A stretch of 64,000 nucleotides of DNA from Syntrophus sp. (in: bacteria) (GTDB lineage Bacteria > Desulfobacterota > Syntrophorhabdia > Syntrophorhabdales > Syntrophorhabdaceae), in the NCBI GenBank assembly GCA_013824645.1, contig PNOF01000001.1:1-64000 (forward strand), read 5' to 3'. The translations under genes and the position numbers were made by a program. The notes below the pieces were generated by a model, which had not been told where the DNA came from, ran no database searches, and was given only the letters and a program-made list of their open reading frames with translations. Shown here one piece after another: positions 34,322 to 38,971 of the stretch (position 1 is the first letter of the stretch; every line of letters begins with the position of its first letter).

Positions 34322-35707
34322 TCATATCACTTCCAGATCCGCATGGAGCGCGCCGGAGGCTTTGATGGTCTGGAGGATGGTAATAATATCCCTCGTGGAA
34401 ACCCCTGTCGCATTTAATGCCTGGACCAATTCCCTGATCGATACACCGCCTTCCATCATATACCACCGTCCCTTTTCTTCTTCCACTCTAATAGTGGTAT
34501 CAGGTGTTACCACCGTTTCGCCTTTTGCAAAGGGCAGAGGCTGGCTTACCTTCTGGTCCTCTTTGATCTGAATACTCAGATTTCCATGAGAGATGGCAAC
34601 CGTTGAAATTTTTACGTTTTCACCGATAACAACGGTGCCTGTTTTTTCGTCAACCACAATTCGTGCAAGGAGATCGGGCTTGACATCAAGATTTTCCACT
34701 ATAGAGAGAAATTTAACCGGATTGGCCTTCATATCACCAGGCAGGTTGACAGTAACTGTCCCGCCGTCTTTCGCATATGAGGAACCCGCAAATATATCGT
34801 TAATACGTTCGGCAACCCTTCTCGCTGTCGTAAAATCGGGGTCCTTCAGTGCAATCATTATCACATCTGTCCGTAAACTTTCATAGGATATTTCCCGTTC
34901 TATCGAAGCTCCATTGGCAATTCTGCCCACAGTAGGATGGTTCTTCTGAACAGTAGCGCCCTGGCCGCTTGCCAGATAACCGCCGGTCACGATAGGCCCC
35001 TGGGCAATTGCATAGGTTTCCCCATCGGCTCCCCTTAACTGAGTGAGCATAAGGACCCCGCCTTCAAGACTCTTTGCATCACCTATAGATGATACGGTCA
35101 CATCTATCTTATTGCCGACCTTCGCAAAAGGAGGCAGATTAGCTGTAACCATTACCCCTGCTATGTTATTGACTTTTGTCGCCCTGGGGTCCACCTTTAT
35201 ACCGAGGGTTTCAAGCATATTGGCAAGACTCTGGTTTGTAAAAAGGGTATTTGTTTTGTCGCCTGTTCCATTGAGTCCTACGATAAGACCATATCCGATA
35301 AGCTGATTGGTCCTCACTCCGTTTATATAGCCCAGTTCTTTTATCCGTGCCGCATATGCAGGATGAATGAGAGCGCCTGCACAGAACATCAAAACAAAAA
35401 ATATAACAGGAAAGACCCTGGCGATGATCTTTGATTTTGTCTTCTGATTCAGCGTGAACCGCTTAATGGCGTTTTGTATCTCCCCGCCTTCTTCATCTCT
35501 CATCTTCTGCCTTTCAATTTCCCTCTTCCCTCTTCCCTCTTCCCTCTTCCCTCTTCCCTCTTCCCTCTTCCCTCTTCCCTCTTCCCTCTTCCCTCTTCCC
35601 TCTACATCCTGTGCTTCACCTTCTATGCTCTCCTGCAGCACAACATATCGGCACTCGCCGCTTGTCTTTGGTTCGCCTTTCTTAATTCTTAATTCTCCAT
35701 TTTTCAT
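34322..35707 (-). CDS. flgI: Flagellar P-ring protein FlgI with repeat-bearing 5' extension
   Basis: The mature P-ring protein is canonical: ARIKELGYINGVRTNQLIG, GLNGTGDKT, ending in IITILQTIKASGALHADLEV. It is preceded by a signal peptide (VIFFVLMFCAGALIHPAYA). The ATG at 35707 follows the flgH stop by 10 nt with GAGGG 7 nt upstream, so translation probably begins there. This gives 461 residues, about 90 more than usual, including four EGRGKRE heptapeptides encoded by 12 units of a 7-bp repeat. An ATG at 35503, just past the repeat, gives a 393-residue precursor of more normal size but has only a weak AAAGG. In either case the repeat controls frame or spacing at the start of flgI. Confidence 0.9.
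   Translation of the reverse strand: MKNGELRIKKGEPKTSGECRYVVLQESIEGEAQDVEGRGKREEGRGKREEGRGKREEGRGKREIERQKMRDEEGGEIQNAIKRFTLNQKTKSKIIARVFPVIFFVLMFCAGALIHPAYAARIKELGYINGVRTNQLIGYGLIVGLNGTGDKTNTLFTNQSLANMLETLGIKVDPRATKVNNIAGVMVTANLPPFAKVGNKIDVTVSSIGDAKSLEGGVLMLTQLRGADGETYAIAQGPIVTGGYLASGQGATVQKNHPTVGRIANGASIEREISYESLRTDVIMIALKDPDFTTARRVAERINDIFAGSSYAKDGGTVTVNLPGDMKANPVKFLSIVENLDVKPDLLARIVVDEKTGTVVIGENVKISTVAISHGNLSIQIKEDQKVSQPLPFAKGETVVTPDTTIRVEEEKGRWYMMEGGVSIRELVQALNATGVSTRDIITILQTIKASGALHADLEVI
35519..35602. repeat. 12 perfect copies of TTCCCTC
   Basis: An 84-bp uninterrupted tandem array of a 7-bp unit (GAGGGAA on the flgI coding strand). It lies between the two possible flgI starts. Loss or gain of one unit shifts the frame when reading from 35707. 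Confidence 0.95.
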
Positions 35708-35717
35708 AGCCTCACCC

Positions 35718-36419
35718 TCAGAACGGCCAGAACCGATCCATCCACCTGGCAAGCCATCCAGGCTCCTGTTTTTCTCCAATAACCCCGATACCCGTATAGA
35801 TAACTTTTGCATCGGCGACCTGCGTGGAAAGAATAGTGTTGTCATAGGCAATATCTCTGGGCCTTATGATGCCCTGAAGGAGTATCTCTTTCCTCTCACT
35901 GTTGACATTGATCTCTCTTTTGCCTTCTATGGCAAGGTTACCGCTGGGCATAACATCAACAATCCGTGCAGTGATCGTAGCGCTCAGAGAACCGGTACGT
36001 GTCGTTTCTCCGTCCCCTGAGAAATCATTCTTTGTACTGGCGCTAATCATTTTGCTCAGGTCAATACTGGAGGGTATCTTATTGGTCTCCAATCCAAGGA
36101 GGTGGGGAATACCGGTATTAATATCAGAAGCCCTCTTGGTACCCGTAGTTGCCTTTTCGGAAGCCTGGGAAACTTCCACAATCTTCACGGTAATAATATC
36201 TCCGACAAAACGGGCCCGCTGGTCCCCGAAAAACGTATTCGTTGTGCTTACGCCTTTCCAGATGGAGCCCGGTTTCGGATCCACTACCGGTTTAGCGAGC
36301 CTATGGGTATTATCAATAACAAAGGGTTCGTCTTTTATGCGCGAGTGCTGAGGTATCTGGCAGGCGGAAAAGAAAACACATAAAGCAAAAAGCAGAAAGA
36401 CAATTCGTAACATCTTCAT
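35718..36419 (-). CDS. flgH: Flagellar L-ring lipoprotein FlgH
   Basis: About 233 residues. Lipoprotein signal MLRIVFLLFALCVFFSAC with the lipobox Cys, then FlgH motifs: GSIWKG, FGDQRARFVGDIITVKIVE, FSGDGETTRTGSL and LSTQVADAKVIYTG. It forms the outer-membrane ring. ATG 36419 has AGGAG at a spacing of 9; ATG 36428 sits too close to that site. It follows the flgA stop within 15 bp. Confidence 0.94.
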   Translation of the reverse strand: MKMLRIVFLLFALCVFFSACQIPQHSRIKDEPFVIDNTHRLAKPVVDPKPGSIWKGVSTTNTFFGDQRARFVGDIITVKIVEVSQASEKATTGTKRASDINTGIPHLLGLETNKIPSSIDLSKMISASTKNDFSGDGETTRTGSLSATITARIVDVMPSGNLAIEGKREINVNSERKEILLQGIIRPRDIAYDNTILSTQVADAKVIYTGIGVIGEKQEPGWLARWMDRFWPF

Positions 36420-36431
36420 AAGATCCATCTC

Positions 36432-37226
36432 CTAAAAATCTACCGTTACAGCATTGTTCGCAGTAACACGTCCTGTAATTTCCCTGCCGGAAGATATATT
36501 TTTTACCCTTACCATATCTCCCATCCTGCCTTTATCAACCATTTTTCCTTTCAACTGTATGAGAAGCCTTTTGTTCTCGGCAATAATGTTTACGACTTCC
36601 CCCCTCTGGACGACCACAGGCTCCTCCAGCATCTGATTTGTCATAATGGTATTGGTTGGGACATCCCTTTTCAGGACTTTTCCGATCACGTCTTCAATGG
36701 AAACCGGGTATTCAGCGCCCCTCCCATTCATGTATGTTTCTTTGACAAAAATATCTCTCTTGCCAAGGATAGTATCTTTTTTACCGGCCTCTTTGAGCAC
36801 AAAGAGTTTTCTCTTTGTAAATATCCTGAAGGGAACCTGAACATTTTTGCTCCTGCCGGCGCCGGTATCTAATTCAACCGTGCAGATACCATCGCCATTT
36901 ACATCAGGAATCTTTATGAAGGTTATATTGTTCACCTTAACCTTTTCTTTCAATTTATTTGGCATACTATTCAACCGCACCTGTACGTCATCGCCCGGAT
37001 TGTACACCTCTTTGACAAACTGGATAATCTTTGCTTCGGTGGCGGAATATTCGGCGGCGTGAGCAACGGAAGGTGAAAGGTGAAAGGTGAAAGGTGAAAG
37101 GTAAAGGATGCATACCAGCAGGGTACAAACTAAAGGGCGATATCCTATAGCCTTTTCAGATTCTCGTACCTTGTACCTTGTACCTTGTACCTTTAACCTT
37201 TTACCTTGTACCTTGCACCTTATCAC
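36432..37226 (-). CDS. flgA: P-ring assembly chaperone FlgA with repeats in its signal region
   Basis: 264 residues. The mature part matches FlgA/SAF: an IFTKRKLFVLKEAGKKD strand, DVPTNTIMTNQML, VVVQRGEVVNIIAENKRLL, and GRMGDMVRVKNISSGREITG. FlgA guides FlgI polymerisation in the periplasm. The start is GTG 37226, with GAGGAG 6 nt upstream and overlapping the flgG stop. No other in-frame start occurs before the signal peptide. Two heptanucleotide arrays lie in this coding segment: the first encodes the basic KVQG-rich N-region, the second encodes the LSPFTFHLSPSV part of the signal peptide. A change of one unit would disrupt the mature protein. Confidence 0.9.
   Translation of the reverse strand: MIRCKVQGKRLKVQGTRYKVRESEKAIGYRPLVCTLLVCILYLSPFTFHLSPSVAHAAEYSATEAKIIQFVKEVYNPGDDVQVRLNSMPNKLKEKVKVNNITFIKIPDVNGDGICTVELDTGAGRSKNVQVPFRIFTKRKLFVLKEAGKKDTILGKRDIFVKETYMNGRGAEYPVSIEDVIGKVLKRDVPTNTIMTNQMLEEPVVVQRGEVVNIIAENKRLLIQLKGKMVDKGRMGDMVRVKNISSGREITGRVTANNAVTVDF
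37070..37104. repeat. AAGGTGA heptamer array in flgA signal peptide
   Basis: Four perfect AAGGTGA units (37070-37097) and one with a single change. On the coding strand it reads as TCACCTT units and encodes the end of the hydrophobic core and the cleavage region of the FlgA signal peptide. Confidence 0.9.
37164..37219. repeat. TTGTACC heptamer array at the flgA start
   Basis: Eight 7-bp units, four of them exact TTGTACC (three consecutive at 37171-37191). It begins 7 bp after the GTG start of flgA, within the translated N-region. Confidence 0.88.
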
Positions 37227-37228
37227 CG

Positions 37229-38017
37229 CTATCTCCTCAAACTATTCGCCATCTGCAACATTTCATCTGCGGCCTGAATCGCCTTCGAATTTACTTCGTA
37301 AGCCCTCTGGCCGACAATGAGGTTGATCATTTCCTGCATAATATTGACATTCGACCCTTCCAGATATCCCTGGAGCATCGTACCGATACCGTTTTGTCCG
37401 GGATTGCCCGTCGTCGCTGTACCACTGGCGTCGGTCTGCAGGAAAAGGTTTTTTCCCATGGCCCTGAGTCCCGCCGAATTCGGAAAAATAGCCAGTTCGA
37501 GCCTGCCTATCTGCTGGGGTGTTGTCTGACCCTGGATCTGCGCCGATATGCTTCCATCTGATTCGATAGATACGTTCAGTGTCCTGGCAGGTATAGTAAG
37601 GCTTGGCTCGATAGGATAGCCGTCAGTGGTAACGATCCTTCCTTCGGCGTCGCTCTTTAATGCGCCCGCCCTCGTGTACGCTTTCTCACCGGAAGGCAGC
37701 GTGACCTGCAGGAAACCGTTTCCCTCAATGGCAATATCGAGTTCGTTTTCAGTCTTTTGATAATCGCCCTGCTGGAATATCTTCTGCACCGACGACAACA
37801 TGGCCCCGAGACCTATCTGTACACCGGTCGGCACTGTATTACCTCCGTCTGTTTTTGCGCCCTGAAGCCGGAGTGTCTGGTACATGAGGTCCTGAAAATC
37901 GGCCCGGCTCCTTTTATAACCATTGGTATTTACGTTCGCAATATTATTTGCAATAACGTCAAGATTTACCTGCTGCACATTCATACCGGAAGCAGATGAC
38001 CATAAAGCCCTTATCAT
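37229..38017 (-). CDS. flgG: Distal rod protein FlgG
   Basis: 262 residues. N-terminal rod motif MIRALWSSASGMNVQQVNLD and NIANVNTNGYKRSRADFQDLMYQ; central QKIFQQGDYQKTENELDIAIEGNGFLQV; C-terminal LEGSNVNIMQEMINLIVGQRAYE and the usual ADEMLQMANSLR end. It builds the distal rod inside the P- and L-rings. Starts 9 bp after flgF. Confidence 0.96.
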   Translation of the reverse strand: MIRALWSSASGMNVQQVNLDVIANNIANVNTNGYKRSRADFQDLMYQTLRLQGAKTDGGNTVPTGVQIGLGAMLSSVQKIFQQGDYQKTENELDIAIEGNGFLQVTLPSGEKAYTRAGALKSDAEGRIVTTDGYPIEPSLTIPARTLNVSIESDGSISAQIQGQTTPQQIGRLELAIFPNSAGLRAMGKNLFLQTDASGTATTGNPGQNGIGTMLQGYLEGSNVNIMQEMINLIVGQRAYEVNSKAIQAADEMLQMANSLRR

Positions 38018-38794: not shown

Positions 38795-38921
38795 TAAATG
38801 GTAAATCGTGAATGGTCAAACCCGTGTCGACCAGATGATAAACCTGCTCCTTTACTATCACTGATAGCGATCAGCCTGTTTTACCGCTTACGATTTGCAA
38901 TTTACGATTTACGATTTACGA
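38795..38921. repeat. Inverted pair of TAAATCG-type heptamer arrays
   Basis: Three units TAAATGG-TAAATCG-TGAATGG read on the plus strand (38795-38815). Five units of the same family read on the minus strand (38887-38921, three of them exact TTTACGA on plus). The pair can fold back. A G9-A7 homopolymer pair follows at 38936-38951. Confidence 0.75.
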
Positions 38922-38971
38922 TTCGCGGGTTCTAAGGGGGGGGGAAAAAAATTCCTACATAGGCAAAATTT

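Follow-up and report, generated by a model that had tools for sequence, protein, structure and literature searches.

The window, that is the whole stretch of DNA analysed here (64,000 nucleotides), contains a gene on the minus strand that is identified as flgI by its Pfam match (PF02119, E=4.6e-138), with flgH and flgA adjoining it. Two in-frame starts are available to this gene. The long reading frame (34322..35707, minus strand) begins at ATG 35707, directly past the flgH stop (TGA 35718-35720), and encodes 461 aa; its start and open extension are matched in G001, the only congener among the genomes compared. The ribosome-site-like sequence GAGGGTGAGG (35710..35719, minus strand), read from the sequence, precedes this ATG and overlaps the flgH stop, and a similar GGTGAGG is found in G001. 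The short reading frame (34322..35503, minus strand) begins at the internal ATG 35503 and encodes 393 aa with a complete signal peptide. It is preceded by AAAGG (35510..35514, minus strand), a ribosome-site-like sequence that was likewise read from the sequence. The FlgI signal peptide, about KTKSKIIARVFPVIFFVLMFCAGALIHPAYA, is encoded at 35351..35445 (minus strand), and the mature protein starts near 35350 with ARIKE, a start that is conserved across the family.

Between the two starts lies a heptanucleotide array at 35519-35603 (minus strand), for which Tandem Repeats Finder reports the unit TTCCCTC with period 7, 12.1 copies, 100% matches and a score of 170, far above that of every other tandem array in the window. 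The preliminary description of this DNA had counted twelve perfect units between two possible flgI starts, with ATG 35707 well placed at the flgH stop and in frame through the array and with ATG 35503 following it, and the repeat finder and the computed frames bear this arrangement out. The coding strand of the array is (GAGGGAA)12, which is read from ATG 35707 as the heptapeptide EGRGKRE four times over. The array lies upstream of the signal peptide and encodes no part of it. A long perfect array with a unit not divisible by three is the form of a simple-sequence contingency locus, and the flgI array has this form. When it was searched for in 39 family genomes, the array was present in this genome only (0/38 others). 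A new fused domain at the FlgI N terminus was dismissed, as the extension has neither conserved sequence nor a Pfam match outside FlgI. A mobile element insertion was also dismissed, as the flanks carry no repeats or genes and the heptads stand alone.

Unit number and the flgI reading frame

The flgI frame was computed for every array length from 8 to 16 units. With 9, 12 or 15 units the long protein is produced. With 8, 11 or 14 units the frame stops at a TGA that overlaps ATG 35503 in the form ATGA (35500..35502, minus strand, for 11 or 14 units), and with 10, 13 or 16 units it stops at a TGA located 13 bases ahead of ATG 35503 (35514..35516, minus strand, for 10 or 13 units), with AAAGG between the two. 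These frames agree with the earlier statement that 7-bp unit steps change the frame of flgI. The further proposal that gain or loss of a unit turns the gene off fares poorly, because the stops of both shifted frames either overlap the in-frame ATG 35503 or come shortly ahead of it, and an on/off effect on flgI is thus doubtful. A stop that overlaps a start, or that shortly precedes one, is a layout at which ribosomes commonly restart (translational coupling). Since the frame from ATG 35503 has the entire signal peptide, the exported FlgI would be unchanged, and a shift in the length and amount of the precursor appears likelier than an on/off effect. We infer restart at ATG 35503 from the stop positions, and stops near this ATG in both frames may be a matter of luck.

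A possible but unlikely alternative is that translation starts at ATG 35503 only, leaving the array as an untranslated spacer between flgH and flgI whose length would at most tune coupling. The leader encoded from ATG 35503 has 51 residues, near the 30-60 of most relatives, and AAAGG is well spaced from this ATG, but the better ribosome site is that of ATG 35707. The congener also argues against an untranslated array, as the flgI of G001 has an ATG at the same place followed by an open extension of 118 codons (119 here), and its later starts are GTG and TTG only. Such open frames are improbable by shuffling, with a chance of 0.004 for G001 and 0.009 for this genome with the array excluded. The middle parts of the two extensions align no better than shuffles, and this genome and G001 therefore have just the position, the start and the openness in common. 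Heptad arrays are absent from both the flgI and the flgA leader of G001.

Heptad arrays in flgA and in P-ring leaders of relatives

The flgA gene (36432..37226, minus strand; PF13144) encodes the P-ring chaperone and is present in a single copy. It begins at GTG 37226, with the ribosome site GAGGAG (37233-37238) upstream, and further in-frame starts are absent until 37007, past the signal peptide. The FlgA leader is encoded by two heptad arrays (MIRCKVQGKRLKVQGTRYKV...LVCILYLSPFTFHLSPSVAHA), which belong to the same operon as flgI and were missed in the preliminary description. The GTACCTT array (37166..37221, minus strand, 8 copies by Tandem Repeats Finder) encodes the charged start of the leader, and the AAGGTGA array (37070..37107, minus strand, 5.6 copies) encodes a portion of the signal peptide's hydrophobic core (YLSPFTFHLSP). 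Because GTG 37226 is the sole usable start, these heptads must be translated. To judge from starts and stops, flgA would be a better candidate for a phase switch than flgI, and the best reading of the two genes is that flgI is probably largely buffered against unit change and flgA is not. A further array of 5 TTACGAT copies (38888..38923, minus strand), likewise missed in the preliminary description, is intergenic and lies upstream of the operon's first flagellar rod gene.

For comparison, flgH-flgI junctions were collected from 29 relatives and the operon from 20. Heptads are found in the flgA leaders of three other genera, the first represented by G018, G033 and G031 (CAGCTAT, AGAGAGC and GAGCGAG types), the second by G015 and G004 (TATTCAC, GTGAAAA) and the third by G017, G008 and G022 (TATTCAC, CTTCTGT), and at least three unrelated units occur among them. 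In each of these relatives the part of the signal peptide that they encode is either its charged start or its hydrophobic core, and a repeat encoding part of the FlgA signal peptide is thus seen both here and in the relatives. Heptads are also found in the flgI leaders of G015, G017 and G008 (two genera), and in the latter two genomes flgI is without a later start, so its heptads must be translated. In the 353 kb around the operons, 21 of the 41 heptad arrays are inside flgA or flgI leaders, which make up 2.3% of that sequence; this count leaves out the window itself and is inflated by arrays shared by descent, so that the counts are not independent. The concentration in these leaders could reflect selection for switching and not tolerance.

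The genomes G008 and G017 are about 92% identical over the operon region. The flgI leader of G008 is 18 bases longer than that of G017, with three AGAAGAC-type units more and three bases fewer at another point, a difference that leaves the reading frame intact. The flgA gene of G017 contains four copies of TATTCAC and is in frame (L083:8436-8540), and G008 has exactly 7 bases fewer in the alignment (L084:13464-13562). The flgA frame of G008 meets a stop after 48 codons and the remainder is open to the gene end. The flgA bodies of the two genomes differ mostly by silent changes (dN 0.009, dS 0.148, dN/dS about 0.06), and a search for a second flgA copy in G008 found none. A frame-broken allele with an intact body, of the opa type, is thus seen for flgA in this one pair, and none is seen for flgI. 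The G008 flgA is the only direct sign of effective one-unit variation, and its frameshift may have arisen in assembly or may mark a gene that is lost for good. The kind of phase switch that the preliminary description had placed in flgI gains support in principle from this allele, one unit short and broken in frame; an off-switch in flgI itself is doubtful. As a separate observation, an 8-base repeat, (AAAAAGGT)3, is seen in G008 alone, where it covers the stop codon of flgG and the ribosome site of flgA (L084:13435-13465).

Heptads across the genome and the place of the flgI array

A sample of 864 kb, about a third of the genome, was searched with Tandem Repeats Finder at a score cut-off of 40 or more. 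The sample contains 21 period-7 arrays and the shuffled control contains none, which excludes chance for the flgI array, the longest perfect heptad array of the sample. Among periods that are not multiples of three, period 7 with its 14-base forms is the commonest, and heptads are heavily over-represented genome-wide in the manner of LSSRs. The unit sequences vary (GTGAATC, TTACGAT, TTGAACC, GGTGACG and others), and no single fixed dispersed heptamer of the TAACTGA or STRR kind accounts for them. About 15 of 26 loci are intergenic and the rest are in ORFs, an approximate split that depends on crude ORF calls. In a GT2 glycosyltransferase (L057:6745-6891, C15), residues 148-204 are encoded by two heptad arrays, (TTGAACC) and (CGTGAAT), which form an in-frame block of 57 residues; relatives align on either side of it with the block missing. 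The same loop in G010, G013 and G018 contains heptads of different sequence, and the frame is always kept. Heptads thus appear to enter permissive coding sites throughout, with flgI as one instance. Taken by itself, the flgI array is of less interest than the class to which it belongs and the repeated occurrence of that class in P-ring leaders. Two further arrays were noted, a (TTGAGAT)5 in a GDP-fucose-synthase-like protein, where it occupies a loop of variable length (L055:4374-4406, C13), and a (TCTGAAC)4 that forms the signal peptide start of a secreted lytic-transglycosylase-like protein (L096:8081-8107, C3).

The reading that we favour, with modest confidence, is that the flgI array belongs to a class of heptad repeats that is spread through the genome and the family and colonises permissive leaders, with flgI buffered against unit changes and flgA not. 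Such repeats would grow and shrink by slippage and would be retained at sites where they are harmless, namely intergenic regions, secretion leaders and variable protein loops. Translation from ATG 35707 would turn the flgI array into a hydrophilic stretch ahead of the signal peptide, and this stretch would be removed during export. A step of one unit either way would shift the flgI frame, ribosomes could restart at ATG 35503 to give a precursor that is shorter but yields an identical mature FlgI, and the array would then mostly toggle the length and amount of the precursor. In flgA the heptads form the signal peptide itself and there is no rescue start, so a one-unit change would be expected to switch the P-ring chaperone off.

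The flgA and flgI leaders may also be parts of a shared contingency module, which we regard as an improbable extension. Slippage in either leader would then switch assembly of the outer ring and, with it, motility; flgA would be the true switch and flgI either a graded switch or one of precursor length, and several genera would have rebuilt the module from different units. It is rather doubtful that the flgI array itself evolved for on/off phase switching of the P-ring and motility. Its twelve perfect non-triplet units do have the form of known contingency loci, heptads occur repeatedly in both P-ring genes with units that differ across genera, and the G008 flgA shows a frame-breaking difference of one unit. 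Against this proposal, each of the two shifted frames has a stop that overlaps ATG 35503 or lies shortly ahead of it, heptads are frequent across the genome at sites unrelated to motility, and the search of the 39 family genomes, where the array is confined to one, showed no length variants. As the repeat class is both genome-wide and family-wide, an evolved flgI switch is unnecessary as an explanation.

The composition of the array raises a further alternative, in which G-quadruplexes in mRNA or DNA, or a triplex of the purine strand, would slow ribosomes or polymerase. The coding strand has 12 GGG tracts with AAGA spacers, the G-quadruplex motif GGGAAGAGGGAAGAGGGAAGAGGG recurs along it, and loci of this type are rare in the 864-kb sample, which has just 14, 4 of them heptad arrays. 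This effect is very improbable as the explanation, as other leaders of the same class are without G tracts (TATTCAC, CTCAAAA, CTTCTGT) and the property is not common to the class. That draft metagenome assembly produced the array, the number of its units or the frameshift of G008 is scarcely credible as a general account, for although every genome compared is a draft (this one with 128 contigs, 88% complete), the 85-base array is shorter than an ordinary read and lies deep within a 146-kb contig with intact genes on both sides, and the repeat class recurs across many independent assemblies.

If the favoured reading of a colonising repeat class is right, secretion leaders and protein loops throughout the family would be continually rewritten from non-triplet 7-base repeats made by slippage. 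The means by which coding DNA tolerates non-triplet repeats, be they leaders, restart codons or removable peptides, would become open to test. It would also make testable whether environmental bacteria phase-vary flagellar rings as pathogens do adhesins.

Comparison with known repeat systems

A literature search found no report of heptanucleotide repeats in flagellar genes, or of phase variation of flgI or flgA, most subscription journals being outside the search. The heptanucleotide repeats of hmw1A in Haemophilus influenzae are located in the promoter region, and such promoter repeats alter transcription, whereas the repeats described here are coding. Phase variation by unit number is described for the hmw1A heptanucleotide tandem repeats (PMC8262952).

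In several bacterial genomes, long repeats with units of 5-11 bases are most often heptads according to the survey by Mrazek and co-workers as summarised in PMC4679880, where slippage with a 7-base polymerase contact is proposed for them and units that are multiples of three are reported as likeliest within coding regions. The heptads described here differ from those LSSRs in being in frame within leaders and loops. The TAACTGA repeats of Beggiatoaceae and cyanobacteria are dispersed intergenic heptamers near starts; some of them fall within ORFs, and an RNA polymerase-like subunit has one in a surface loop (PMC4679880). TAACTGA and the cyanobacterial STRR are each one fixed heptamer, whereas many units occur here, even within one gene.

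A close layout is that of the Neisseria opa genes, which switch by means of (CTCTT)n located in the leader-coding part, where unit changes shift the frame (PMC3960869). The P-ring genes are alike in having short non-triplet repeats in this part, where a change in unit number shifts the frame. The flgA arrays match the opa layout further in their pyrimidine-rich coding strand and in encoding the hydrophobic core. The flgI gene is unlike opa in that its array comes before the signal peptide and is followed by a putative restart codon. The units here have 7 bases and a different sequence in each species, and the target would be the flagellar P-ring, where that of opa is an adhesin.
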